Shown here one piece after another: positions 4,800-43,550 of a stretch of DNA of 64,000 nucleotides. Numbering within the stretch: the stretch's first letter is position 1; each line of letters starts with the position of its first letter. The position numbers and the translations under genes were made by a program. The DNA is from Thiospirochaeta perfilievii (lineage in GTDB: Bacteria; Spirochaetota; Spirochaetia; DSM-2461): assembly GCF_008329945.1 (NCBI RefSeq), contig NZ_CP035807.1, positions 2,418,001-2,482,000 of the forward strand, in the 5' to 3' direction. The notes under the pieces are model-generated. The model ran no database searches, was not told the origin of the DNA, and saw nothing but the letters and a program-made list of their open reading frames with translations.

Positions 4800-5234
4800 A
4801 TGCAGCCAGATGAGATTGACTGGAAAATAATTGAGAATATTAGGGAAGAGCATAAAAATAATAATGCAATTGCCAGGGATCTAGGTGTTTCTGAGGGTAT
4901 GATACGTCAGAGATTAAAAAAGCTTAAAGACTCTGGAGTTGTAAAAATCAGTGGGCTTATTAATCCTGATGTTCTTGAGAATAAGATGTTAGCTTTAATT
5001 GCAGCTACCCTAGTTGATAGCTCAAAATTAACAGAGATCTCTGAGAGAATTTCCGAGTTTGATGAAGTTTTATCCGTCTCTGTATCCACTGGACGATACG
5101 ATATTATGATTGAAATATTAGTAGAGTCAAATAAAGGCTTGGTTAAATTTTTAACTCAGACCTTATCTTCTGTTGAGGGTATTAGCGAGACTGAAACATT
5201 TGTTATGTTAAAAACCTTTGGGAAATATGTTTAG
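4800..5234 (+). CDS. Lrp/AsnC family transcriptional regulator
   Basis: 144 aa, full length for the family. The N-terminal winged helix-turn-helix covers about residues 5-50 (IDWKIIENIREEHKNNNAIA, then GVSEGMIRQRLKKLKDSGVV). The C-terminal RAM/ligand-binding domain (about 62-140) contains the usual LALIAATLVD strand and ends in a RAM-like ETETFVMLKTFGKYV. These proteins bind amino acids and regulate amino-acid metabolism as oligomers. A clear AAGGAG precedes the ATG. The gene sits 15 bp after glnS in the same direction, so co-transcription is likely. The target and ligand cannot be told from the sequence. Confidence 0.92.
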   Translation: MQPDEIDWKIIENIREEHKNNNAIARDLGVSEGMIRQRLKKLKDSGVVKISGLINPDVLENKMLALIAATLVDSSKLTEISERISEFDEVLSVSVSTGRYDIMIEILVESNKGLVKFLTQTLSSVEGISETETFVMLKTFGKYV

Positions 5235-5236
5235 GA

Positions 5237-7324
5237 TTAGATTAATACTAATCCATAATCATATAAGATAGATGTTGATTCCTGACTTAACCATAAGTCA
5301 GGGTCAATTCTGTATTTCGAGGCAATTGAATCCACATCCTTAAGAGTTATTTTGGCTCTTTTTTTATAAGTTATCACTTCTAAAAGCTCTTTAATAAAAT
5401 TCACTTCATCTTCATCTAAGGTAATACTCTCCTGGGATGTATTGTCATATAGGTAGATGTTATTCCCTTTAAACTCTACATTCGAACCTATCCACACTAT
5501 CTGGGTTGAATCCTTAAGTTCAACAGATGTTGTAGCAAGGATATCTTCTAAATAGCTCTTTTTTATTTTAGTTTTAGGAATAGGGAAGTCAAACCATCTT
5601 GATAGTGGAAGACTTAATCCATTCCCCCTCATAAAATTGTACAAAGATGTTTTTAATCCATTTGAAAATCTAGATGGATCTTTATCACTAGAAGAGAACT
5701 CTAAATCATTTTTTGCAAACCCTTCATGTTTTGGTCCAGTTATTGAAACACCGTACTCTTTTGGATTTATTCCGACCCTACTATGGGCTGTTAAAGCAAA
5801 CTGGTGCCAGTATGCAGATTGTATTAAACCTAATTGAAATAGCTGTCTAACAATTTCTAAGGCATCTACTGTCTCTCTATCTGTCTGACTAGGAAAACCA
5901 TACATAAGGTAAGCGTGAACAAGAATCCCTTCCTGCCCTAATGAGGCCGTAACCTTAGTCACTTGGTTTACAGTTACACCCTTATCCATAAGTTTCAATA
6001 ATCTATCCGATGCAACTTCTACACCTCCAGATACTCCTATACATCCACTTTTAGCCATTATTCGGGCAAGACCCCTGGTAAAACGAGTCTCAAACCTAAT
6101 ATTTGTCCACCATGTAACAGCTAGACCTCGTCTAATAATCTCTAAGGATACTTCCTTTAATAGGGCAGGGGGTGCTGCCTCATCTACAAAGTGAAACCCA
6201 GTCTGACCTGTATCCTTAATAATCTTCTCAATTTTATCTACAATTGAAGTGGCATTGGATTGATGATAGGAGTTTATATAGGGTAGGGATGTATCGCAAA
6301 ATGCGCATCTTTTCCAATAACATCCGTGGGCTAGTGTCAATTTGTTCCATCTTCCGTTGTTCCATAGGGAGTGCATGGGATTTAGTGTATCTAAAAGGGA
6401 TATATATAGGGAGAGGTCTAATCCTTTGTAGTCTGTAGCTGGAAGACTCTCTAAAGCTGGATCCATTGAACTATTTTTGTGATAGACTACCTTACCATCC
6501 TTTAGGGTATAGGTTCTATTTAACTTAATGTTTTTATCAGATAAACTTCTTAGAATAAGCTCTATAGGTGTTTCTCCATCATCTAATACAACATAGTCCA
6601 CATAGTCAAAAAACTTCTTCTCTGTAAGTGATCTTAATTCGGTATTAACCCAACCTCCACCTATTATTATTTTTATATTTGGATCAATTTTTTTTATATA
6701 TGACGATATTTTTAGGGTTGATATTAGGTTTCCCGGGAAGGGGATTGTAATACCAATTACATCATATTTCTCCCTAGCAATTATTTTACTCCACTCTTCT
6801 AATATAATATCAGTTATTACAGTTGTTGGTCTCTCTAGCTCATCTTGTATAATTGAGAAAGAAGCGGGGGAGAGACCTAGCCTCTCACTATATCTACTAA
6901 AACCAAAGTTCTTATCTATATTTTGAGTTATATAGTCCCCAATATCGTTTATATATAGGGTTGCTAAGTATCTAGCATTATTTTCAATGCCACTCTCTAG
7001 GTTATCAAAACGTGTTGATTGGGGTAGGAAGTCACTATTGACTATTCTATTCTCTAAGGTAGGGTTTTTCCCTTTTAAAAAATCTATTACAGGATCTATA
7101 GTCTTTATGTATGACTCTTTTAAAGCTCCAACTCTTCCAACTGACTTTACGCTGAAAATTCTCTCTAGTCCCTCTTTAGAGAGTATTTTATTTATTACTA
7201 TAATTCCTAAGTCTACTTGATCAACACTATGCCCCTTCTCTCTTAAAAAGGCACAGAGATAGGATATTGCTGGGTATGGAGTATTTAGCTGGGAGAATGG
7301 GGGAGTAACTAGTAGCGTTTTCAA
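5237..7324 (-). CDS. B12-binding-type radical SAM protein
   Basis: 695 aa. The N-terminus (KTLLVTPPFSQLNTPYPAIS, then LREKGHSVDQVDLGI) and a Rossmann-like segment (DVIGITIPFPGNLISTLK, IIIGGGWVNTEL, DYVVLDDGETPIE) match the cobalamin-binding half of BchE-like radical SAM enzymes. The iron-sulfur motif is GCYWKRCAFCDTS at about residue 335. It is followed by FHFVDEAAPP and the SAM-binding TIM-barrel strands GVSGGVEVASDRLLKLMDKG. The substrate is unknown. The start is TTG at 7324, directly abutting the TAA of the upstream membrane protein gene (no gap), so the pair is probably translationally coupled. It converges on the Lrp gene with a 2-bp gap. If it really uses B12, it would be a consumer of the corrinoid taken up by the operon at 14.5-19.5 kb. 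Confidence 0.85.
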   Translation of the reverse strand: MKTLLVTPPFSQLNTPYPAISYLCAFLREKGHSVDQVDLGIIVINKILSKEGLERIFSVKSVGRVGALKESYIKTIDPVIDFLKGKNPTLENRIVNSDFLPQSTRFDNLESGIENNARYLATLYINDIGDYITQNIDKNFGFSRYSERLGLSPASFSIIQDELERPTTVITDIILEEWSKIIAREKYDVIGITIPFPGNLISTLKISSYIKKIDPNIKIIIGGGWVNTELRSLTEKKFFDYVDYVVLDDGETPIELILRSLSDKNIKLNRTYTLKDGKVVYHKNSSMDPALESLPATDYKGLDLSLYISLLDTLNPMHSLWNNGRWNKLTLAHGCYWKRCAFCDTSLPYINSYHQSNATSIVDKIEKIIKDTGQTGFHFVDEAAPPALLKEVSLEIIRRGLAVTWWTNIRFETRFTRGLARIMAKSGCIGVSGGVEVASDRLLKLMDKGVTVNQVTKVTASLGQEGILVHAYLMYGFPSQTDRETVDALEIVRQLFQLGLIQSAYWHQFALTAHSRVGINPKEYGVSITGPKHEGFAKNDLEFSSSDKDPSRFSNGLKTSLYNFMRGNGLSLPLSRWFDFPIPKTKIKKSYLEDILATTSVELKDSTQIVWIGSNVEFKGNNIYLYDNTSQESITLDEDEVNFIKELLEVITYKKRAKITLKDVDSIASKYRIDPDLWLSQESTSILYDYGLVLI

Positions 7325-16331: not shown

Positions 16332-18171
16332 TTATATTCCTTATATATTCTAGACTTATCCCAAGAGTAAATCCTGGTACAGGGTAACCACGGTAATCCG
16401 TATAGTTTTTGTTTAATAAATTTTTACCATAAATATTTAGTATTAACTCATCTGTTATTGGTATAATGGTATTTAGGTCTACAAGGGTATAACCGGCTCT
16501 ACTTTTTGTATTTGCACTAGTTATATAACTCTCTCCTGTAAAAGTGGTATCAAGGGAGATTTTAAAACTATTGTAATGATAATATATTAGAATTACATTT
16601 CCTTTATGGGATGGCCTGTTTATAAGTTTTTTATTGAATAATATACCTGGATCCCTGTTTAAAGCTGATAGGTATGTATAATTTATTCGACCTTCTAAAT
16701 ATCCGTAAATTGGTAAAAAATCAATTAGAATTGACAATTCAGTCTCTAAACCCTTAATTTGGGCTGACCCTAGGTTATTAGGCGACCAAAGACCGTTGGG
16801 CCCTGGGTTCCATTGTATTAGGTTTGAAATATCATGATAGTAGAGCGTTGTTTCAAGTTTTAAATTTCCTGTTAGAGCAGTTATAATGCCAAGGTCAAAT
16901 ATAATGGCATTCTCATTTTTTAGATTAGAGTTTCCAATTGCAAATGAGGTTTGAGGCCAAAATAGATCGTTAAAAGAGGGCAACCTATAACTATTGGCAA
17001 CACTACTTTTTAGTGTGTGTCTGTTTTGAGAATCAAAGTTGTAAGAAAAACCAAGACTCCAACTAAAAATAATATCGGAGTCTATTACCGTATCTATTCG
17101 AATTGATGGATGAATTAAAAGTTTAGAAAAAATATACTGGGGAGAAATGTAAAGGGAAATTGCCTCCCTTTTTATATTTTTATCTATAGTTGTAGAGTCT
17201 AAATAGTCAAATCTTGAACTTAGTTCAATTGTATTATTATAGGAAAAAGTTGATGATAGTGATTTATAATCATGGTTACTACTAATAGGTCCTAAAGGGG
17301 CATCTGAATCTTTATAATCCCTTATTTTATTTAGATATGTGACATCTATAAAAAAGAGGTCTATAAAGTTAAAATTAATTCCACTAATGTATTCTAAGTC
17401 CTTCATTCTAGCTGTTATTGAAGGAAACTCTATAATACCGGGAACACCTTTATCAGCAGTATAAAGGCTATTATTAAGGGTTATGTCTATATTATTGATT
17501 AAAAAGTTCAAATTAAATGAACCAAATATAGATTTTAAGTCAGAGTTTATCCTCTGTCTTGAACTCTCTCTATATAAAAAATCATAATTCCCAGGGCTAT
17601 ATATTCCATATATTCCACCATTAACATTTAAGCCTTTAAAATTCTTGTTTAAGTTTAAAGAGAGGATATTTCTTTTTTCTATGTTGTAGTCATACTTTAT
17701 TCTTATGTAGGAATTAATATTTTCATCTGTAATAATATTAACTACTCCACCAAATGCACTCTCTCCATAAACAGCAGACCCTCCACCTCGTATAACTTCA
17801 ATCTCTTTTATGCTCTCTGGGGATATAGTGGAAAGATCAACTCCTCCCCCCTGGGATGAGTTAAGCCGCTTTCCATTTAACATTATAAGAACCTGCTCTG
17901 GAGAAGAACCTCTAATTGATATAAATGATGGAGACGCATCATTACCCATTTTTGACATTGCTACACCCATTGCTGATGATATTAATTCTGATGTGGATGC
18001 CCCAGGTAATAGAGATATTTCTTCCTTGGAAATTATAGATATCTGTTTTGTATTATTATCAAATTTATTAATTTTTTCTGTTTCTCCGGTTATAATTATT
18101 GTTTCTATATCCTCTGTAGAGAAAAGGTTTAATGATAAAAATAGCAGTATTATTAATAGATATTTTTTCAC
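16324..18171 (-). CDS. BtuB-like TonB-dependent outer-membrane receptor
   Basis: 615 aa, the size of BtuB. The signal peptide is MKKYLLIILLFLSLNLFS. A TonB box (ETIIITGETEKI) lies at about residues 23-34. The plug domain has SIRGSSPEQVLIMLNGKRLN and the hallmark EVIRGGGSAVYGESAFGGVV. The remainder is a beta-barrel of alternating strands, with KNLLNKNYTDYRGYPVPGFT near the C-terminus. It imports a large ligand across the outer membrane using TonB. The riboswitch-like leader at the head of the operon and the propeller lipoprotein next door point to cobalamin or another corrinoid. The small size argues against a SusC-type receptor. It overlaps both neighbouring genes by 4-8 bp. Confidence 0.92.
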   Translation of the reverse strand: MKKYLLIILLFLSLNLFSTEDIETIIITGETEKINKFDNNTKQISIISKEEISLLPGASTSELISSAMGVAMSKMGNDASPSFISIRGSSPEQVLIMLNGKRLNSSQGGGVDLSTISPESIKEIEVIRGGGSAVYGESAFGGVVNIITDENINSYIRIKYDYNIEKRNILSLNLNKNFKGLNVNGGIYGIYSPGNYDFLYRESSRQRINSDLKSIFGSFNLNFLINNIDITLNNSLYTADKGVPGIIEFPSITARMKDLEYISGINFNFIDLFFIDVTYLNKIRDYKDSDAPLGPISSNHDYKSLSSTFSYNNTIELSSRFDYLDSTTIDKNIKREAISLYISPQYIFSKLLIHPSIRIDTVIDSDIIFSWSLGFSYNFDSQNRHTLKSSVANSYRLPSFNDLFWPQTSFAIGNSNLKNENAIIFDLGIITALTGNLKLETTLYYHDISNLIQWNPGPNGLWSPNNLGSAQIKGLETELSILIDFLPIYGYLEGRINYTYLSALNRDPGILFNKKLINRPSHKGNVILIYYHYNSFKISLDTTFTGESYITSANTKSRAGYTLVDLNTIIPITDELILNIYGKNLLNKNYTDYRGYPVPGFTLGISLEYIRNINE

Positions 18172-34330: not shown

Positions 34331-35745
34331 ATGAGGTTTCTATTATTAACTAAGGAAGAAAATTGTAATAAATATAAAAAAATCTTAGACTTCCTAGGTT
34401 GTAAAAATATCATAGCCACCCTATGTTATAATATCAATAATCCTCCAAATAACAACTTTGATTTTTATCTTATTGAAGACTTCCTATGGAGTGAAATAGA
34501 GATAATTTTAAACATACCATTTTTTATTAATCTAAATAAAGATAAAGAAATAGAGGGTGTTTTTTCTAATAAAAACTTTGTTGGATATTTAGATTTAACT
34601 TCAAATCCTACTTTTATATACTCAGTATTTAAGAATTCTACAGCTTTAGTTGTTGCAAATAATAAAAAGATAAGTGAAAAAAATAAAATATTATCAATGG
34701 CAATTGATAATAGCCCAATTTCTATAATGATAACAGATAGTGATGGGATTATAGAGAGTGTAAACCCTAGGGTCTGTGAAATAACCGGTTATGATTATGA
34801 CTCTTTAATTGGTCAAAACCCTAGGATACTAAAGTCAGAGAACTCTGTTACAGATTACAAAGATATGTGGTTAACCTTAACTTCTGGTAGGGTATGGAAG
34901 GGTGAGTTTTGTAATAAAAAAAGAGTGGAGAGGAGTATCGAGAATCTGTTATCATTACTCCTGTTTTTGATGAAAACAGAGAAATTATTAAATATGTTGG
35001 TTTAAAAGAAGATCTTACTGGGCTTTTAACAATACAGAAGGAACTAGAAGAGACCCTAGTCTCCCTAGAAGAGACTGTTAATAAACGAACATTAGTACTA
35101 AGAAGCACTCAATCTCTACTTTTAGAGTCTTTAGCAACACTTTCTGAATATAGGGATAATGAGACTGGAGAACATATCAAAAGAACAAAACTATATGTAA
35201 AATTTCTAGTAGAATGTATTAGCAGTAGTTTAGACTATACTGAGTATGAGTTAGTTCAGCTCTGGAGTTCTGCCCCACTACACGATATAGGAAAGGTAGC
35301 TATTCCTGATAATATATTATTAAAGCCGGATAAATTAACTGATGAAGAGTTTGATATAATGAAAATGCACCCAATTCATGGAAATGAGGCATTGATGAGG
35401 GTTAGTGAGTGTAAAGATGATGATAATTTTCTGAAGTTTGCAAAGGAAATTACCCTTTTTCACCATGAGAAGTGGGATGGTTCCGGGTATCCATACGGTT
35501 TAGAGGGGGAGGATATTCCAATCTCTGCAAGAATGATGGCCTTAGCTGATGTATATGATGCTTTAAGATCTAAAAGGCCATATAAGGATCCTATCCCCCA
35601 TGAAAAAGTTATGGGTATGATTTTAGAGGAGAGAGGTAGGCACTTTGATCCAGTGTTAGTAGATCTTTTTATTGAGTTTAATGGTAAATTTAATGATATT
35701 TTTACAAATTCAATGGAGGAAGTATTTAATTTTGATGATTTGTAG
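34331..35745 (+). pseudogene. PAS / HD-GYP c-di-GMP phosphodiesterase, frameshifted
   Basis: The N-terminal frame (MRFLLLTKEENCNKY onward; about 110 residues of unrecognised domain) continues into a PAS domain: ILSMAIDNSPISIMITDSDG, ITGYDYDSLIGQNPRILKS. At a run of seven A (34916-34922) the frame shifts by -1; eight A would restore KKKSGEEYRESVIITPVFDE. The second frame holds a coiled coil and an HD-GYP domain: HDIGKVAIPDNIL, MKMHPIHGNEAL, HHEKWDGSGYPYGL, LADVYDALRSKRPYKDP. HD-GYP proteins degrade c-di-GMP. A start further upstream (TTG at 34301) is possible; no good ribosome-binding site is seen for either. About 472 aa if repaired. Confidence 0.85.
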
Positions 35746-35798
35746 TTGTCGAAATGATTAAATATTAGTATATTCATATATATAGATAAGGAGATATT

Positions 35799-36161
35799 AT
35801 GGAGCATTTAACATTAGAAAGTTTTAAGGAAAAAATCTGTACCTGTGGTTTAGATGGAAAAGAAGGTGCGGAGTGGAGTTATAAGGGTGATCTACCTTGT
35901 TTAATAGATTTTTACGCAGACTGGTGTGGTCCATGTAAAAGGGTTGCTCCAATCTTAGAGGATTTAGCTAAAGAGTTTGAAGGTAAAGTTCATATATATA
36001 AGGTAGATACTGAGGCTCAGCAAGAGTTAGCGGCTATGTTTGGTATTCAAAGTATTCCAACTCTTTTATATGTACCAATGGAAGGAAAACCTCAGTTGGC
36101 AGCAGGAGCTCCTCCTAAACCACAATTAGTACAAACAATGAAGGATATTCTAAAAATATAA
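35799..36161 (+). CDS. trxA: Thioredoxin
   Basis: 120 aa. Active site FYADWCGPCKRVAP (about 45-58), followed by VDTEAQQELAAMFGIQSIPT with the cis-Pro. The N-terminus is extended by about 20 residues compared with E. coli Trx and contains CTCGLDG, two extra cysteines at about 13 and 15. It reduces protein disulfides in the cytoplasm. AAGGAGA precedes the ATG. It ends in a UUCG hairpin terminator. Confidence 0.95.
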   Translation: MEHLTLESFKEKICTCGLDGKEGAEWSYKGDLPCLIDFYADWCGPCKRVAPILEDLAKEFEGKVHIYKVDTEAQQELAAMFGIQSIPTLLYVPMEGKPQLAAGAPPKPQLVQTMKDILKI

Positions 36162-36167
36162 TTAATG

Positions 36168-36185
36168 GCACCTTCGGGTGCTTTT
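36168..36185 (+). terminator. UUCG tetraloop terminator
   Basis: GCACC-TTCG-GGTGC (36168-36181) followed by TTTT. It separates trxA from the converging Crp/Fnr gene. Confidence 0.85.
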
Positions 36186-36191
36186 AATTAT

Positions 36192-36869
36192 CTATCTGTA
36201 CTCCTTTAATAGAGTGTAATCTAATATAGTTATATACTCTTTATCCTGTTTTATTATTCCTTGGGTAATTAGGTTTTTAAACTCCCTTGAAAGGCTAGGC
36301 CTTGTAACTGCCATCTCTTTTGATAGTTCTTCCTTAGTTTTACTTAAGATAAAACTCTTTGAATTTACTTTTTTAGACTCTTGTAATAGTATAGTGGCAA
36401 TCTTCTGCTTTATATTATTAAGTTGCAAAAAGTTTATCTTTTTAGATAAAAAATCCACCTTTGTTGACATTACCGACAGTGTATTTTCCAGTATATCTTG
36501 ATTCGCCATACAGCAGCTTAATAACATCTCCTTAGGTAGTAAAAAAACTTGACTATCCTCTTTTGCAAAAAGAGTAACAGGAAGTTTTTGATTTTTAGAA
36601 AATAGAACGGGGATAGCAACTGGTTGATACTTCCCAAACTCCTCCATATTGATTATTTTTCCATCATCTGAAGCCATTTGAGCTTTTAGCTTCCCATCAA
36701 TAACAATAATTAATTTATCTAAAACTTGACTCTGAAACCAAACAGTCTCCCCTTTTTTAAACCATTTAATAATTGGTTGGTGGGACGTTAATATCCTGTT
36801 TAATTGGTTAATATCAATATTCTTAAATATTGGTGATTCTGCTACTGCTAATAACTCTCTTTTTTCCAT
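36192..36869 (-). CDS. Crp/Fnr-family transcriptional regulator
   Basis: 225 aa. The cyclic-nucleotide-binding-like domain covers about 10-130 (PIFKNIDINQLNRIL, FKKGETVWFQSQVLDKLIIV, then EFGKYQPVAIPVLFSKNQ). A helical dimer linker follows. The HTH (about 165-215) reads SKTKEELSKEMAVTRPSLSR, EFKNLITQGIIK. No N-terminal Fe-S cysteines are present, so it is not a classical Fnr; a haem- or nucleotide-type sensor such as HcpR or a similar member is possible. hcp at 27749 carries a matching style of palindrome. Confidence 0.88.
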   Translation of the reverse strand: MEKRELLAVAESPIFKNIDINQLNRILTSHQPIIKWFKKGETVWFQSQVLDKLIIVIDGKLKAQMASDDGKIINMEEFGKYQPVAIPVLFSKNQKLPVTLFAKEDSQVFLLPKEMLLSCCMANQDILENTLSVMSTKVDFLSKKINFLQLNNIKQKIATILLQESKKVNSKSFILSKTKEELSKEMAVTRPSLSREFKNLITQGIIKQDKEYITILDYTLLKEYR

Positions 36870-36952
36870 TTTAACCTCTAATAAATGGTACTTTTTTTGT
36901 ATATATTAGTTAACCTCTTTATGATACTCTATTTTAAAAAAGGAGATAAAAA

Positions 36953-37645
36953 TTGATTAACAAACTAAAAAAAATAGCTATTATTAGCTTAGCGTTACTA
37001 ATTTTTTCAGGTTGTACAACAACTAAGAGTGAAACAGCAGAGAATTATGAACCAAATATTCTAGATGTTTATGGAACATATGAGGCTGGAGAGTATGTAA
37101 ACAAGTATTACGGATTTAAACTAGATATCCCAGAATCCTATACTATTCATGATGATGAGACTAAAAGATATGTCGAGGAGTTAGGGTCACAGGTATTTGA
37201 TGTTGATGGTGAGTCATCAGTAGACATCCAAGAGATTATGGCTGTTCAGACATATAATATTTTATTAGCATCAAAATATGCTTTTGGTGAACCTGTAGAA
37301 GAAAATATACTTTTTCAATTAATTAGTGAAAACCTAACATACTCCCCTGGAGTTGAAAATGGTGAAGACTACCTATGGCATGTAAAAAAACTACTTAAGG
37401 AAGGTGGTCTTAATATTATTGATGAATCAGAAACTGCTACAGAAACTATAAATGGTGTTGAGTTTTATACTTATAGTTATGGAATGGTTATTCAGGGTTC
37501 AACAATATACCAAAATTGGTTTTGTAAAAAGGTGAATGATCATATGGTATGTTTTGCATTAAGTAGTGTAACAGATGAAGGTTATGCCGAGCTTTATTCA
37601 ATTTTAAACACTCTTGAATTATTAGATCAAACTTCTATAAATTAA
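36953..37645 (+). CDS. Lipoprotein of unknown function
   Basis: 230 aa. The signal MINKLKKIAIISLALLIFSGC gives a lipobox Cys. The mature domain (YVNKYYGFKLDIPESYTIHD, EEIMAVQTYNIL, then YTYSYGMVIQGSTIYQN) resembles small lipoproteins with a PsbP/LpqN-like alpha-beta fold that contain a KYYGFKLDIP start and a paired Cys (WFCKK, MVCFAL) near the end. The start is TTG at 36953 with AAAGGAGA. The function is unknown. It is monocistronic and ends in a strong terminator. Confidence 0.75.
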   Translation: MINKLKKIAIISLALLIFSGCTTTKSETAENYEPNILDVYGTYEAGEYVNKYYGFKLDIPESYTIHDDETKRYVEELGSQVFDVDGESSVDIQEIMAVQTYNILLASKYAFGEPVEENILFQLISENLTYSPGVENGEDYLWHVKKLLKEGGLNIIDESETATETINGVEFYTYSYGMVIQGSTIYQNWFCKKVNDHMVCFALSSVTDEGYAELYSILNTLELLDQTSIN

Positions 37646-37651
37646 GGAATG

Positions 37652-37693
37652 GCTGTTGCTAAAGGTCATAAGGTTTTAGCAACAGCTTTTTTA
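37652..37693 (+). terminator. Strong terminator
   Basis: Perfect 12-bp stem GCTGTTGCTAAA (37652-37663) / TTTAGCAACAGC (37675-37686), followed by TTTTTTATTTAT. Confidence 0.92.
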
Positions 37694-37694
37694 T

Positions 37695-38621
37695 TTATAA
37701 TCTATTAACATCATACTCTTTATCTTTTAACAAATTTATTAAACTACCATCTCCAACTAAATGGCCGGCACCAACAACAATAAAGTAGTTATCATTGGTC
37801 TCTAGGAATCCCTCTATCGCTTCTAACCAGTTTTTATTTCTTTGATAAAAGAGCAGATCTAAAAACTCATCACCTTTTGATAACAATAAAGATTCATCAA
37901 TTATATTTTTTATTCTTTTTGTATCTCCCAATTTCCAAGCACTTATTAAATTCTCATAATAGTCTCCAAAAGTATTTACATTATCAATTGTGGATATTAA
38001 CTCCGCAATTTGATACTCCTTTGGGTAAGAATCCCTTAGTAATATCTGAGACTCTGCAGACTCTAGGTACATAGTATCTAATCCCATTTCATCAGCCACA
38101 GCCTGTAAGTGAATATCTACTCCATTCTCAGAACTATATCCAAATTCTTTAGTCTTATAATCCGAAATTACTGCTGAAACCATCCAGGGCTTAAATATCC
38201 TAATATGTTCGAAAGTCATATTGTACGGAGTTAAAATCTCTGTTATTTGTCTCCTATGATTCTCATCTACATAATTAGCAAGATCATCATTATCTGGGAG
38301 TAGGGATGTCTCAATTATAAACTTTTGAAATTCTGGGGTGGTAGTTAATGAAGCATCAGCTTCTAATACAAAGTGATCAGAATTTTCTATAGCCTGATAA
38401 AAAGAATCATCTAAAGGGTAGATATCCCCAGGGGCAATATGAATTGAACCAGCTATATAAATAGACCTATCCCCATTTTTTAGTTCCCATAGTAGTGGTC
38501 TTACATCATTACCCTTTAAGACTTTATCAGCCGTACTTGAACAAGATATGCTAGAACCTATAACTATGGTCACTGCACACATTGTAATAATTTTTTTTAT
38601 CAATAACTTAATTTTATACAT
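37695..38621 (-). CDS. TraB/GumN family lipoprotein
   Basis: 308 aa. The signal ends in VIGSSISCS (lipobox Cys). WELKNGDRSIYIAGSIHIAP and DDSFYQAIENSDHFVLEADA open the fold, and FIVVGAGHLVGDGSLINLL closes it. These two His motifs (GSIH, GAGHL) are characteristic of the TraB/GumN family, related to TIKI-type metal-dependent proteases. It is presumably periplasmic-facing and membrane-anchored. AAAGGAAAAG precedes the ATG. It is the last of five minus-strand genes spaced by less than 11 bp or overlapping, beginning at 40599. Confidence 0.88.
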   Translation of the reverse strand: MYKIKLLIKKIITMCAVTIVIGSSISCSSTADKVLKGNDVRPLLWELKNGDRSIYIAGSIHIAPGDIYPLDDSFYQAIENSDHFVLEADASLTTTPEFQKFIIETSLLPDNDDLANYVDENHRRQITEILTPYNMTFEHIRIFKPWMVSAVISDYKTKEFGYSSENGVDIHLQAVADEMGLDTMYLESAESQILLRDSYPKEYQIAELISTIDNVNTFGDYYENLISAWKLGDTKRIKNIIDESLLLSKGDEFLDLLFYQRNKNWLEAIEGFLETNDNYFIVVGAGHLVGDGSLINLLKDKEYDVNRL

Positions 38622-38630
38622 ACTTTTCCT

Positions 38631-39005
38631 TTAAATTCTATTAATTAAAAAAATAGAGTTTATTATTATATTATCTTGATTTTCAATAAATTCAGTGTCT
38701 TCTATAAAAATGATTGTTTTATTATTAATTATTGATTTCCCAGACTGTATAGTAACTTCTAAAATTTCTGAGGTTGCATAACTTCCTTTATCTGTCTTTA
38801 TGGTTAAAGAAAAAGTTGTCGTCGATATATCCACATTTCCTGTATTACTAATTTTGTAATTTAATAAGCATTCCTTTTTCTCGGTATCCTTATTTAAGTA
38901 AACCCGATAACTCTCTATTCCAACATCCCCTGTTGGATACCAGTCTTCAATATTATTACAACTCATGACTGAGATGATAAATAACGCTAAAAATATTTTT
39001 TTCAA
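38631..39005 (-). CDS. Small lipoprotein of unknown function
   Basis: 124 aa. The signal MKKIFLALFIISVMSC carries a lipobox Cys. The mature part (KECLLNYKISNTGNVDISTT, TFSLTIKTDKGSYATSEI) is an all-beta domain of CARDB-like or Ig-like type. It may mediate protein contacts. It lies between a beta-barrel gene and the TraB/GumN gene in the same transcript, with 9-10 bp spacing on each side. No specific role is recognised. Confidence 0.65.
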   Translation of the reverse strand: MKKIFLALFIISVMSCNNIEDWYPTGDVGIESYRVYLNKDTEKKECLLNYKISNTGNVDISTTTFSLTIKTDKGSYATSEILEVTIQSGKSIINNKTIIFIEDTEFIENQDNIIINSIFLINRI

Positions 39006-39015
39006 TTTTATACTC

Positions 39016-39807
39016 CTAAAATTCTATGTCGTAACTAGTTGCAATTTCTGTGTTAGGATTAATGCTCCCTGAGTCAAACTGGCTGTTTACCCCAGTATTA
39101 ATTGCTAATTTATCAATGTAATAAAAGAAACTAAAATTAATTGACATGTAGCTTGTAGTATCATTCCATTTTGTTTTGTTAAAATCGGTCTTTGGTAAAT
39201 ATATACTGTTTATAAATTTGATATTATATCCAAGTTTATCATTTAATACCTCTGTTATCCCCCCATTAAAGCAGATTACTCCTAATGTACTAACAGTTTT
39301 AAACCTACTTTTTTTAAATAACCTAAGAGTATAGTCAATTGATAGATTTAATATTGTTGGATCAATTATTTTTGAAAGACTAATCGCAATATTAGGTTTA
39401 TGATATCCATCACCACTCATTATATTACGCACGTTAGCTTGATAATTATTATGAATTCCTAATGGATAGGAATAACCAAGATCCCCTCTAATCCAGTAAT
39501 CTCCAAAGTTTTTATATAGACTCAAGCTTGCTCCACAATCACCTAATGCTAAACCATTTTTCGTTTTTCTAGTGGTAGTTACTCTTGAAAATTCCTGATT
39601 CAAAGAGATAGAAAGATAATTCATATATTTATAAGAAACAGATAAATTACTATCTAAATAGATGTCATAGGATGTATCACCATTTACACAATTAAAAGAT
39701 AGGCCAATACTTGGGGTAATTAAGTGTTTCCTACGTTTCTCAACACCCAAACGTTGGTGATCTTCTGCTGAAATATTAACAAATGATAATAAAAGCATTA
39801 TCACCAT
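39016..39807 (-). CDS. Predicted outer-membrane beta-barrel protein
   Basis: 263 aa. A short signal peptide (MVIMLLLSFVNISA) is followed by alternating hydrophobic/polar strands such as PSIGLSFNCVNGDTSYDIYL, LSVSYKYMNYLSISLNQEFS and MSINFSFFYYIDKLAINTGV. It ends in an aromatic residue (SYDIEF), as outer-membrane barrels do. About ten strands are visible, and no family is recognised. AGGAGAG precedes the ATG. It overlaps the C39 peptidase gene by 7 bp, so the two are probably made together. Confidence 0.75.
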   Translation of the reverse strand: MVIMLLLSFVNISAEDHQRLGVEKRRKHLITPSIGLSFNCVNGDTSYDIYLDSNLSVSYKYMNYLSISLNQEFSRVTTTRKTKNGLALGDCGASLSLYKNFGDYWIRGDLGYSYPLGIHNNYQANVRNIMSGDGYHKPNIAISLSKIIDPTILNLSIDYTLRLFKKSRFKTVSTLGVICFNGGITEVLNDKLGYNIKFINSIYLPKTDFNKTKWNDTTSYMSINFSFFYYIDKLAINTGVNSQFDSGSINPNTEIATSYDIEF

Positions 39808-40349
39808 GCTCTCCTGTGTAACAGATCTATTCTTCTTAGATTAACATTAACCGCTTTTTCTAATGTTTTTTTATCACTATTTTCTGTTTGTGATGCAACA
39901 ATAACAACTTTATTTGACCATCTGTCATTAAATTGTTTTACTGATAAAACTTCAATGCCTCTTGCAGGATCAGCAGTAACAATCCTAAAATCTCTATATC
40001 CTAAAAACAAAGCAAAATGTTTATTTGGATAATCATAATGGACAATTATAGGATAATATTTTTCAGAGTTATTTATAAGCTGATCTAGAGTCATTTCATA
40101 TGACTTGGTAAGTAGTCCATATTCACTAATAAATTCTGAAATATCATTTAAATTAACGGTATATTTACCATCTTTAATTTTTTCGAGAAGTTCGTATTCA
40201 TTGCACTTTTTTCTCCAATATATATCTAATAAACTTGAAGTTATTGATGCTCCACATGAATTATCATAACCTTGTTCATGAACATATTTAAACTTTAAAT
40301 CTTCTTTAGGGATAACTAAGGATACTAACTCAAATGTTAATTTAGTCAT
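39801..40349 (-). CDS. C39-family (papain-like) peptidase
   Basis: 182 aa. The catalytic Cys is in GYDNSCGASITSSLL (about 28-42), the His in YPNKHFALFLGYRD (about 109), and the Asp in VTADPARG. These three match the C39 peptidase domain that removes double-glycine leaders in bacteriocin exporters, but here the domain stands alone without ABC or membrane parts. No clear signal peptide is seen, so it is cytoplasmic or reaches the envelope by another route. It overlaps the upstream membrane-protein gene by 8 bp and the downstream barrel gene by 7 bp. Confidence 0.85.
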   Translation of the reverse strand: MTKLTFELVSLVIPKEDLKFKYVHEQGYDNSCGASITSSLLDIYWRKKCNEYELLEKIKDGKYTVNLNDISEFISEYGLLTKSYEMTLDQLINNSEKYYPIIVHYDYPNKHFALFLGYRDFRIVTADPARGIEVLSVKQFNDRWSNKVVIVASQTENSDKKTLEKAVNVNLRRIDLLHRRAW

Positions 40350-40599
40350 GTATATCCTCTAAGATCTCAAAGTGTTTACGATCCCCTTTAAAGTCTCCAA
40401 TCAATTTATCTAAATATAATAAATTGAAAATAACTGTATAACTAACCATCAATCTTAATGGCATATAATCATAAATAAATATTGAAGTGATATATAAAAT
40501 AGCTGAACCTATTAAATAGAGTAGTACATCACCTTTATATGACTTATTCCAACTTTTTTTATAGATAAAAATTTTAACCTTATATCCTTTTAAGCTCAA
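40342..40599 (-). CDS. Small membrane protein of unknown function
   Basis: At least 85 aa from a TTG at 40599. Two hydrophobic helices (DVLLYLIGSAILYITSIFIY, LRLMVSYTVIFNLLYL) lie between charged ends. The reading frame stays open for about 40 more codons upstream and encodes another membrane-like segment (HILLVFIFYLHIDTIFLTWL). No standard start codon precedes it, so the true N-terminus is uncertain or the gene is 5'-truncated. Its 3' end overlaps the C39 peptidase gene. Confidence 0.55.
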   Translation of the reverse strand: MSLKGYKVKIFIYKKSWNKSYKGDVLLYLIGSAILYITSIFIYDYMPLRLMVSYTVIFNLLYLDKLIGDFKGDRKHFEILEDIHD

Positions 40600-40714
40600 C
40601 CATATTTTAACAATCCATTCTGGAATAAGCCATGTTAGAAAAATAGTGTCTATATGTAAATAAAATATAAATACTAGTAAGATATGTATAATAAAATTAG
40701 GTATATGTAGGGTA

Positions 40715-40743
40715 TTAGCTTAAGAGATTCACTCTTAAGCTAA
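40715..40743. terminator. Long hairpin downstream of the HAAS-domain gene
   Basis: Perfect 12-bp inverted repeat TTAGCTTAAGAG (40715-40726) / CTCTTAAGCTAA (40732-40743) with a 5-nt loop. It lies just after the stop of the HAAS-domain gene. No T-run follows on either strand, so it may act as a stability element as well as a terminator. Confidence 0.6.
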
Positions 40744-40753
40744 CTAAGCATTT

Positions 40754-41725
40754 TTATTCAACTATTTCACTTTTTATATAGTTTATTAATTTTGATATAA
40801 GCTCTCCAATACCTGCTACTAAGCTAATAACAATAATAAGTTTTATACCTAGTGTGGATTTTGAAAATAGACCATTATTTACACCGTTATATATAAAAAG
40901 TTTATCAGAACTTAAAATAATTATCATAAAGATAGTTTCAGATAGGGATGTTACAAAATCTAAAACATATAGGGACTTTGTTTTTATCTCCTTCTTTAGA
41001 AGTTTAAAATGATAATATACTTGAAGTAGACCTAAAGCTGAAAATATATAGATATACCCTGAAAAAACATCCATATTGATTCTATTGCCAAGGCTTAAAC
41101 CACTTTTAAGGAATTGATTTTCTAGGAGTTGTATAAAATCGGGATATAAATTTATTAGAGTTATAAAAATAGGTATAAGAATTATTGCTATAATAGACTC
41201 GACTTTAGACTCTGTCTCCTTGGAAAGGGTTATGGATTCTAACTCTTTTACACTCCAATCTTCCTCTAGATCAACCTCTTTATCCTTTAGGAATTTAGTG
41301 ATAATTATAAATATAACAGTTAAAAAACCAATTCCGGAAATTGATGCTTGTATGGTGTTTATTGGAAATTTAATAAAAAGTCTAAATATCTCTATTCCTT
41401 TTGGATTTGTTGTAAATAGGTTAACAATAAATATTGTAAAAAACGAAATTCCTATAGAGCCTACAATAATCTTAAGTATCATAAAATATAGGTCAGTAAA
41501 TCCAGAGCTAATTACCTGGGGAGTTCCTATATATTTTTTAGCTACTCTACCTGGAGTTCCAAAATCGCTAATTGCTTGATTTATACTCTCTGGAGTTGGA
41601 TCTGTACCATATTTCTCTTCAATCTCATCTAAAATAAGGGATTTCAACTCCTGTTTAATCTCTTCTCGACCCTTTAGGGGTAATTTTTGTCCAATAGCGT
41701 ATATATACTTATCAATTATTTCCAT
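40754..41725 (-). CDS. HAAS/DUF1700-type membrane signalling protein
   Basis: About 323 aa from the ATG at 41725 (AGAGGG upstream). The open frame begins 10 codons earlier but without a ribosome-binding site. Residues 1-60 form the HAAS signature: EIIDKYIYAIGQKLPLKGRE, then EEIEEKYGTDPTPESINQAI and FGTPGRVAKKYIG. Six or so membrane helices follow. HAAS proteins are classically encoded with PadR regulators and act as their partner or target. It overlaps the PadR gene by 14 bp, and a strong hairpin follows it. Confidence 0.85.
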   Translation of the reverse strand: MEIIDKYIYAIGQKLPLKGREEIKQELKSLILDEIEEKYGTDPTPESINQAISDFGTPGRVAKKYIGTPQVISSGFTDLYFMILKIIVGSIGISFFTIFIVNLFTTNPKGIEIFRLFIKFPINTIQASISGIGFLTVIFIIITKFLKDKEVDLEEDWSVKELESITLSKETESKVESIIAIILIPIFITLINLYPDFIQLLENQFLKSGLSLGNRINMDVFSGYIYIFSALGLLQVYYHFKLLKKEIKTKSLYVLDFVTSLSETIFMIIILSSDKLFIYNGVNNGLFSKSTLGIKLIIVISLVAGIGELISKLINYIKSEIVE

Positions 41726-42068
41726 TTTTTCCCTCTCTTTTTGAAAAGCTTTCAATTATAGAGTTGGTTTTTACCCAACTACTGTAGAGTTTTTCTCGTA
41801 CCTCTACTCCTAAACTACTTATTTGGTAATACTTTCTAGGTCTGTTATCCGTTGTATCCCAAAAGCTCTCTAGTAACCCCTGTTTATCTAATCTTCTTAA
41901 TAGTGGGTAAAGTGTGTTTTGTTCAATTTCTATACCCTCTCTATTTAGATCGTTAACAAGGGAGTATCCATAACACTTATTTGTTGTATTAAAAAGAACG
42001 GATAAAACTAGAGTTCCTCTTTTTAGCTCTTGATTCAGGTTTTCTATGATCTTTTCTCTCTCTTCCAT
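41712..42068 (-). CDS. PadR-family transcriptional regulator
   Basis: 118 aa. The winged helix covers about 15-90: ELKRGTLVLSVLFNTTNKCY, GYSLVNDLNREGIEIEQNTL, YPLLRRLDKQGLL. A short C-terminal helix follows (EKLYSSWVKTNSIIE). PadR proteins repress by binding palindromes near their own promoter. It is the first gene of a pair with the HAAS membrane protein. Confidence 0.92.
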   Translation of the reverse strand: MEEREKIIENLNQELKRGTLVLSVLFNTTNKCYGYSLVNDLNREGIEIEQNTLYPLLRRLDKQGLLESFWDTTDNRPRKYYQISSLGVEVREKLYSSWVKTNSIIESFSKREGKNGNN

Positions 42069-42141
42069 ACTTTCCCTCTATTTATATAATAGTGTGTGAT
42101 ATACAGTATTGTCAAATAGTAAACAGTGTAAACTAGTAAAG

Positions 42142-42747
42142 TTATGCGATAAACGGATAGCCATCAATATCTTTTTTACAACTCTCCCAATGAATCTTCC
42201 CATTTATCTTTGACTCTACGGCTAGTGCCACAGCTACAGACATAATTTCATGATCATTTTTGGGTTTTATTTTAAATGTATAACCCCTAATCTCTATGGC
42301 TTTTATAAGATTGTTTATTGAAGGTATGGATTTTTTTACCAAAAGAACATCTTCATAATTGTAGTTGTCTAGGGCTAAAAAGGCTCCTGGATGACACTCG
42401 TATAAAATAGGTTTTATATCTAAGAAACTAAATAGTCGAGTTAACCTTATTCCCCTTGATGTTAAGTATATCATTCTACTATAAGTTGGTGGCATAACAC
42501 CTATTTTTGTAAAACCAAAACTATTTAGATAAGTTCTTAAGTCTCTATCTGACTCCCTATATCCTCCTTGTTGAGAGTAGGATAGGGGTGCATCAATTCC
42601 AACGTATTTTGCTTTATGTTTAAAAAGAAAATTAAATAACTCATCATCAGAAAACCCACTATAAACTTTTATGTTCTTATCTTCTATAAATGATATAGCT
42701 GTATCTGTATGGTTTTTAGGGCCTGCTAGATCTATACCTATAATCAT
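42142..42747 (-). CDS. DUF429 family protein
   Basis: 201 aa. MIIGIDLAGPKNHTDTAISF, YVGIDAPLSYS, RDLRTYLNSFGFTKIGVMPP and LYECHPGAFLAL are typical blocks of this family, which has an RNase H/actin-like Asp motif but no assigned function. The ATG overlaps the stop of the upstream PilZ gene by 4 bp, so the two are translationally coupled. Confidence 0.88.
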   Translation of the reverse strand: MIIGIDLAGPKNHTDTAISFIEDKNIKVYSGFSDDELFNFLFKHKAKYVGIDAPLSYSQQGGYRESDRDLRTYLNSFGFTKIGVMPPTYSRMIYLTSRGIRLTRLFSFLDIKPILYECHPGAFLALDNYNYEDVLLVKKSIPSINNLIKAIEIRGYTFKIKPKNDHEIMSVAVALAVESKINGKIHWESCKKDIDGYPFIA

Positions 42748-43550
42748 AGTACTCCTTTTATATTAACCCTTTCAAGGAATTCTGCTATCCACATCTTGTA
42801 AGTAGGGGGAATTAGCTCCTGATTAAAGGTGATTATTATTGTAAATAGATCCTTTCTTGTATTAATATTATCAACCCTTGTAATCTCTCCCATCATTTCT
42901 CCAATTCCATCAAGTCCATTATATTTTATTAATAAAAGGACGCTTGTTTTCTCCTTAAACTCTTTTTTATCCCCTACTATAATTATTTTTGCACTAAATA
43001 TTGATATCTCTGTTAAAATACATCTTCTTCCCTTTCCTGAGATAAATAGAAAATTTTCCATACTATTTCGTAATAATGAGTTGCAATTTTGGTTGTTTAA
43101 TACAAATCGCTCTTCTGCTCTCTTATGTTTATTTTCTTGATCCTGTATATATGTCCCTAAAATACTAATTAGGTCGTTTGGGGCTCTATTTATAAATTCA
43201 AAGGTTGCAAAATAGAGCTCTTGTTCCTGGTTACCATAGGGGACTAAACTTATAATTTTTGAGTTTATATAAAAGACTATATTACTCTTCTCTGTTGGGA
43301 TTTTAAAGCAGTATTTTATTGCTAGGTTATTTCTATTTTTTTTTAAGAATTCTATTTGAAGTGGTGTCAATTTTATTATAATCCTTGAGCTTGTTAGTGA
43401 TGAAGAGTATAAAATAGATGGGAATTTCCTATCCCCAACCTTTAAATATATTTGATCAACTTTTAATCCTAGGGATCTAATAACACTTTGATTAAATGTA
43501 ATATCGTGGTCTTTATGATTATTATATATATCATTTAATCGACGTCTCAT
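42744..43550 (-). CDS. PilZ-domain c-di-GMP receptor (spirochaete type)
   Basis: 268 aa. An N-terminal PilZN-like domain covers about 1-140. A PilZ domain follows with HKRAEERFVLN (RxxxR-type c-di-GMP motif) at about 143 and ISIFSAKIIIVGD, which corresponds to the (D/N)xSxxG part in modified form (no Gly). The degenerate second motif could weaken binding. It would act as a cytoplasmic c-di-GMP effector, possibly on motility. It sits upstream of DUF429 and divergent from the chemotaxis receptor gene. Other c-di-GMP genes in the window are at 30849 and 34331. Confidence 0.75.
   Translation of the reverse strand: MRRRLNDIYNNHKDHDITFNQSVIRSLGLKVDQIYLKVGDRKFPSILYSSSLTSSRIIIKLTPLQIEFLKKNRNNLAIKYCFKIPTEKSNIVFYINSKIISLVPYGNQEQELYFATFEFINRAPNDLISILGTYIQDQENKHKRAEERFVLNNQNCNSLLRNSMENFLFISGKGRRCILTEISIFSAKIIIVGDKKEFKEKTSVLLLIKYNGLDGIGEMMGEITRVDNINTRKDLFTIIITFNQELIPPTYKMWIAEFLERVNIKGVL

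Follow-up and report, generated by a model that had tools for sequence, protein, structure and literature searches.

Stand-alone C39 cysteine peptidases paired with FapF-type outer-membrane barrels are known as FapD/FapF, FilB/FilC and NapP/NapF. In the functional amyloid (Fap) system of Pseudomonas, according to the excerpted text of two reports, FapD acts in the periplasm and its Cys is required for secretion of FapC; reports from 2017 and 2018 both describe the target of FapD as unknown, and co-localization of fapD and fapF in five additional phyla was reported in 2018 (PMC5557850; PMC6173800). The nap island of Neisseria combines the C39 protein NapP with a FapF-related channel, NapF, and excerpts of its description propose periplasmic cutting and release of the double-glycine (GG) peptides NapABC, a bacteriocin-like cargo accompanied by an immunity-like gene (PMC11798529). 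Here we compare these systems with a cassette of five open reading frames (ORFs) in a 64-kb stretch of Thiospirochaeta perfilievii DNA (the window, to which coordinates refer unless a locus is named). All five ORFs lie on the minus strand, and they encode a small membrane protein, a C39 peptidase, an outer-membrane barrel, a lipoprotein (called the WYP lipoprotein here, from its WYP motif) and a TraB/GumN-family lipoprotein (Table 1). The first-pass annotation read the cassette as an undescribed system for maturing or exporting an envelope protein or peptide. The C39 and barrel do form a real conserved pair, which is best interpreted as processing and exporting a protein; "undescribed" no longer applies, as the pair is already known. 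What appears new is the likely cargo with its two-part leader, a Sec signal followed by a double-glycine leader, of which we found no statement in searches of an open-licence library.

Positions 38631–40349 probably encode the part of a FapD/FapF-type route that processes and exports the cargo, orphaned in this genome; the TraB/GumN and 85-residue proteins would not be parts of it. In the proposed route, the cargo would pass the inner membrane by Sec, and signal peptidase would remove its signal peptide. The C39 peptidase would then cut a second, double-glycine-type leader (LSxxExxxIxGG-like) after its GG-like site in the periplasm, and the barrel, probably FapF-like, would let the mature cargo out; the lipoprotein would be an accessory. 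Relatives have a cargo gene 0.2–1.3 kb from C39; in the window genome the machine would stand apart from its cargo. The proposal is built on homology, gene order, the leader motif and their association, from which cleavage, localization, export and the role of the lipoprotein are predicted.

The window C39 scores 65.8 bits against PF03412 (cut-off 22). Its best NCBIfam match is FilB of the Acinetobacter Fil system (E 3.6e-15), at 56.1 of the 475 bits needed, and the FapD equivalog NF058616 is matched far below its cut-off (E 7.8e-5; 22.1 bits against 330). The catalytic residues C32, H111 and D127 are invariant across 12 aligned C39 proteins, the window's included; all 12 match the FapD model and 11 match the FilB model. 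Peptidase-containing ATP-binding cassette transporters (PCATs) share the C39 fold and the leader type with this family. In PCATs, however, the peptidase is fused to an ATP-binding cassette (ABC) permease and ATPase, whereas the window protein has 182 residues and no ABC domains; a Sec signal would take the place of the ABC step, and cutting would be periplasmic. The cassette contains no ABC exporter, as had been noted before. Nor did a C39-ABC exporter come up anywhere in the 3.7-Mb genome at the threshold used: apart from the window protein, the sole C39 match is a stand-alone paralog cut short by a stop codon (locus L020). Of the stand-alone C39 proteins detected in this genome, that of the cassette alone is intact.

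Searches for C39 in 148 close genomes and in 392 genomes of the phylum left 25 stand-alone loci, window included. Dropped before counting were C39 domains in open frames of at least 712 residues (the C39-ABC type) and two unsuitable rows: L029, with no convincing C39 protein in frame, and L078, an ABC-type C39 that a transposase gene cuts off from its ABC part. L066 and L067 share one genome, as do L020 and the window, and L099 and L101 repeat L021 and L022. A gene-neighbourhood check of C39-barrel pairs, proposed in the first-pass annotation, bore the pairing out: in 14 of the 25 loci a profile-supported barrel gene directly follows C39 on the same strand. The profile was built from 13 of these barrels, the remaining one being that of L074. 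In L075, a C39 domain and a barrel-like part are combined in a single 472-residue frame; the barrel match is modest. Four loci (L023, L025, L027 and L028) have an unclassified signal-peptide gene in the barrel's place, which the barrel profile does not match; in L026 the contig ends; and in five (L020, L022, L070, L076 and L077) no such gene follows C39. Homologs of the WYP lipoprotein, sought with phmmer among the ORFs of all fetched loci, occur in L065, L068, L071, L073 and L100, each time adjoining a C39-barrel pair. The same search found no homolog of the TraB/GumN or the 85-residue protein at other C39 loci. By homology and gene order, the conserved unit is C39, barrel and WYP lipoprotein, since the lipoprotein recurs at C39-barrel loci while the other two proteins do not. 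Two of the 25 loci, L028 (2006–7935) and L074 (3032–9132), resemble clusters for ribosomally synthesized and post-translationally modified peptides. Their C39 peptidase has a signal peptide. Its gene comes after those for a PqqD-type protein, a LolA-like secreted protein and an ABC transporter, and is itself followed by another signal-peptide gene; radical S-adenosylmethionine, PqqD and ABC domains are confirmed by Pfam for L028 and were recognized by eye in L074.

The cassette had been taken for one unit of five genes, in which C39 and TraB/GumN, as two proteases, mature one envelope protein that the barrel exports. The spacing invites this: the 85-residue ORF and C39 overlap by 8 bp and C39 and the barrel by 7 bp, and the following gaps up to TraB are 10 and 9 bp, all as first annotated. 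Proteins of the TraB family have been proposed to be metallopeptidases, and membership is clear here (PF01963, TraB_PrgY_gumN, 190.2 bits; cut-off 26.8). However, neither TraB/GumN nor the 85-residue gene is conserved with the C39-barrel pair, so the five-gene unit was rejected, and a second protease as part of the machine is not supported. Of 40 further genomes searched, seven encode a TraB homolog, and none of the seven has a stand-alone C39 in the close-genome search (the G013 match there is in a 753-residue frame), and a paralog of 51% identity elsewhere in the window's genome has no C39 among its neighbours. We give the five-gene system very little credence; TraB/GumN is probably a passenger, and it and the 85-residue protein are best taken as neighbours of the machine.

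The barrel appears FapF-like by sequence and structure modelling. Family members have three features in common: a segment with the consensus EHxR immediately behind the signal peptide, an xDP motif and an LN motif. Searched against Protein Data Bank sequences, the 13-member profile has FapF as its sole match, a weak one (E about 0.06–0.07). A model of the window barrel built from three sequences is of low confidence, with a predicted local distance difference test (pLDDT) score of 43.6 and a predicted template modelling score of 0.47, and has ten strands, the first predicted from residue 28 of the 263. Foldseek with this low-confidence model returned FapF chains as all of its top 17 matches (all E ≤0.001, best 1.7e-5). 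An NCBIfam scan of the window barrel gave no FapF match, and a FapF-type periplasmic coiled-coil domain is absent. For comparison, FilC itself matches the FapF model at 2e-8.

Near C39-barrel pairs of other spirochaetes lie genes with a Sec signal peptide followed by an LSxxExxxIxGG-like segment that resembles a double-glycine bacteriocin leader. A pattern for this leader matches in 6 of the 25 loci, 222–1314 bp from C39 (Table 1). Five of the six were already known when the first pattern was drafted; L063 was new. In a control of 20 stretches (400 kb) from six genomes including the window's, there were two matches to the loose pattern and none to the strict one. As a held-out check, L100, fetched later, matches the fixed pattern with the leader LSEAEMGAVEGG, and its mature cargo starts with LPRCC, resembling the L065 cargo in this. 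When the 392 genomes were searched with a profile of eight leaders, full-length matches appeared in seven, all with a stand-alone C39; six were already in the profile and one, G297, is new. The search for double-glycine leaders proposed in the first-pass annotation thus succeeded in relatives, behind Sec signal peptides, and found none encoded beside the window cassette.

The mature part of the L024 and L065 cargo families is common to plain double-glycine precursors beside the ABC-type C39 of L078 (E 1e-7 to 4e-5). To judge from these sequences, it is as if the same cargo were able to leave by either the Sec/C39-barrel or the ABC route; this related mature cargo is a further likeness to PCATs. 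L078 (3055–9529) itself carries several of the plain precursors, and its transposase gene lies between C39 and the ABC part. CPBP-type membrane proteins are common bacteriocin immunity proteins, and they are found near cargo genes or C39 in L020 (weak, below cut-off), L066, L074 and L130. Related small secreted proteins, possibly also immunity proteins, are encoded directly after the cargo gene in L065 (7845–8195, no Pfam match) and L100 (1432–1785 and 1906–2445). Cys and His segments in the cargos of L065, L100 and L024 had suggested by eye a papain-like or peptidoglycan-hydrolase nature, which we do not claim because Pfam (L065, L024) and NCBIfam (all three) give it no support. A structure model of the L100 cargo was too poor to use (pLDDT 39).

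Leaders of the same kind occur on plasmids of other phyla. The window C39 matched 27 records of a plasmid collection, of which 8 were examined, together with 1 of 2 phage-collection records; the latter two are labelled Acinetobacter phage, and the one examined proved to be an Acinetobacter fil locus. On Campylobacter jejuni pSKBC5-2, C39 is accompanied by a barrel-like gene and by three signal-peptide proteins with LNLDEMKQVKGG, two of them annotated as bacteriocin, and C. volucris p9726 has one signal-peptide and leader gene like those of pSKBC5-2. Two Acinetobacter plasmids encode cargos with LSNQEMKDTQGA or LSRQEMKDTQGA. In a Polymorphobacter plasmid, VSDAELGKVAGK and ITDYELATMRGG stand beside FapD- and FapF-like genes, and in a Photobacterium plasmid LTDDEMSSLRGG was recognized by eye in the protein directly after C39. 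The plasmid of Deinococcus sp. NW-56 (L136, 2886–5280) carries LSDAELDEVKGE behind a Sec signal in a protein that ends in an Ntox33 toxin domain (3.7e-23); the next genes encode, in order, a DUF4279 protein, C39 and an outer-membrane barrel. No such leader cargo was seen in Cupriavidus. The spirochaete barrel profile matches the Campylobacter and Deinococcus barrels weakly (E 0.057 and 0.0011), and a tblastn search for the barrel in the plasmids gave no match. A first leader filter missed L127–L129 until it was loosened; the loosened filter finds leaders in 8 of 10 later loci and in none of the 400-kb control, a figure that is descriptive because the filter was loosened after those misses and because L130, one of the loci, was picked by its leader. 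In the Polymorphobacter (L133, 3559–6574) and Photobacterium (L135, 4564–5073) loci, the genes are those of Fap-like operons; an RGG leader adjoins the signal peptide of their products, which are candidate FapD targets.

These operons, with the same kind of leader, and the relatedness of the window's C39 to FapD and, apparently, of its barrel to FapF raise the question of whether the cassette is itself a true Fap-type amyloid system that exports fibre subunits. With the Pseudomonas system it has in common a stand-alone C39 beside a barrel that appears FapF-like. It differs in lacking fapA-, fapB-, fapC- and fapE-type genes and the barrel coiled-coil and in having the extra WYP lipoprotein; the window's relatives carry other cargos. 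No amyloid subunit (FapB, FapC or FapE) was found among the ORFs of at least 60 residues at 35000–43500 or in the Pfam scan, so that an amyloid-repeat gene is missing around the cassette, and the match to the FapD equivalog is distant. A fibre-exporting system is therefore quite improbable here, and the processing-and-export half of a FapD/FapF-type route fits better. The nap island resembles the window in that C39 adjoins a barrel, in the window an apparently FapF-like one, and differs in having a GG-leader cargo gene in its locus; near the window cassette no such gene was found, whereas relatives have one. In those relatives a Sec signal would explain the inner-membrane step, which the excerpts of PMC11798529 do not assign to the Naps; the two are likened here by description. 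Acinetobacter Fil supplies the best match to the window C39, below the FilB cut-off, and FilA and the other fil genes are absent from the window.

In at least four phyla, stand-alone C39 peptidases and FapF-type barrels may constitute a single, general route of export for proteins that Sec delivers and that have a double-glycine leader behind the signal peptide. Its cargos would be Fap-like subunits, bacteriocin-like peptides and also polymorphic-toxin domains, with genes of immunity-like type (CPBP, DUF4279) as neighbours. FapD-type peptidases would recognize the two-part leader, and the spirochaete branch would add a dedicated lipoprotein and be able to separate machine from cargo. We regard the case for this generalization as evenly balanced. 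The two-part leader beside C39-barrel pairs in several phyla offers a concrete, testable cleavage site for FapD-type peptidases, and suggests a two-membrane export route that serves bacteriocin-like and toxin cargos, not amyloid alone. As an example the window is modest: its machine is intact, and no cargo gene adjoins it.

Several observations weigh against reading the window cassette as such a machine. The N-terminus of its C39 is a short, weakly hydrophobic stretch containing a Glu, which makes periplasmic location a real doubt; those of L021 and L022 are no better. The leader pattern has no match in 19 of the 25 spirochaete loci, and both pattern and filter were fitted in part to leaders already seen. 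The FapF likeness of the barrel is weak by sequence, its structure model is of low confidence, and VIA-align places OmpG, COG4313, CymA and FapF level (Z 12.5 to 13.6). As the COG4313 channel and OmpG score as high as FapF, the barrel could be an ordinary COG4313-like small-molecule porin, with C39 acting elsewhere and their adjacency incidental. This is hardly credible given adjacency conserved in many genera, one apparent fusion protein and the conserved lipoprotein. Finally, the pattern search near the cassette found no cargo gene, the only match in the window being a TonB-receptor-like ORF near 18033. Pattern and leader profile together recognize one cargo leader in the whole genome, 857 kb away at L020, itself a member of the profile, and no second cargo gene. 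Another genomic pattern match, at 2114758, was taken for chance, and lower profile matches were taken as noise (most cover only model positions 1–29; one covers 1–48 at E 0.34).

It is conceivable that the cassette is a decaying relic of an export system and no longer functions. L020 shows such decay in the same genome: its C39 is truncated, it has no barrel, and its cargo frame ends soon after the GG, with no ATG, GTG or TTG before its signal sequence. The lack of a nearby cargo and the weak C39 N-terminus point the same way, and two genomes of the same genus (81% and 71% complete) have no C39 match. Against this, the C39, barrel and lipoprotein frames are intact, the catalytic residues are kept, and the genes are tightly spaced with ribosome-binding-like sequences. 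We consider a relic unlikely. The cassette is best read as an intact but orphaned processing and export module, orphaned because the sole recognizable cargo gene lies in the distant, decayed L020 locus; the module may act in trans, act on a cargo not recognized by our searches, or be relictual.

Table 1. Genes of the cassette (window positions), leaders near C39 in related loci, and the sister locus in the same genome (locus positions)
Feature	Position	Strand	Evidence
C39 cysteine peptidase, stand-alone, 182 aa, FapD/FilB-like	39801..40349	-	PF03412; NCBIfam FilB/FapD matches; catalytic residues in alignment
Outer-membrane beta-barrel, putatively FapF-like, 263 aa; conserved xHxR segment following the signal peptide; coiled-coil domain absent	39016..39807	-	Family alignment, profile, Foldseek
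WYP lipoprotein, 124 aa, lipobox VMSC, conserved-core member	38631..39005	-	phmmer homologs, alignment
TraB/PrgY/GumN-family lipoprotein, 308 aa, last gene, probably passenger	37695..38621	-	Pfam; paralog and homolog distribution
Small membrane protein ORF, 85 aa, TTG start	40342..40599	-	ORF only; no homolog in fetched loci
L021 leader LGEKELNAIEGE			Pattern, near C39
L024 leader LTDAQMQGISGR			Pattern, near C39
L063 leader LDAQQADTVEGK			Pattern, near C39; not seen before pattern was written
L064 leader LSIDDAEIISGG			Pattern, near C39
L065 leader LTETEMEGIVGG			Pattern, near C39
L067 leader LGEQDSAAVKGG			Pattern, near C39
L020, sister locus in decay: C39 truncated, cargo with LSDSEIVIITGG in a broken frame, a CPBP-like gene, and a transposase gene close by	4965-6760 (C1 near 1.599-1.601 Mb)		

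The remaining features of the cassette concern its upstream end. C39, barrel, lipoprotein and TraB each have a ribosome-binding-like sequence ahead of the gene. No ribosome-binding site is evident before the TTG start of the 85-residue ORF, and its hydrophobic frame continues upstream without an ATG, GTG or TTG. A Pfam scan gave no above-cut-off match for this protein, the barrel or the small lipoprotein. A promoter scan was not above chance (25 found against 28.3 expected). Upstream on the same strand lie genes for a PadR regulator and a HAAS/permease-prefix membrane protein (40754–42068), neither with a homolog at other C39 loci. Between these genes and the cassette, just beyond the stop of the HAAS gene, lies an inverted repeat (40715–40743) whose 12-bp arms pair perfectly around a loop of 5 bases.

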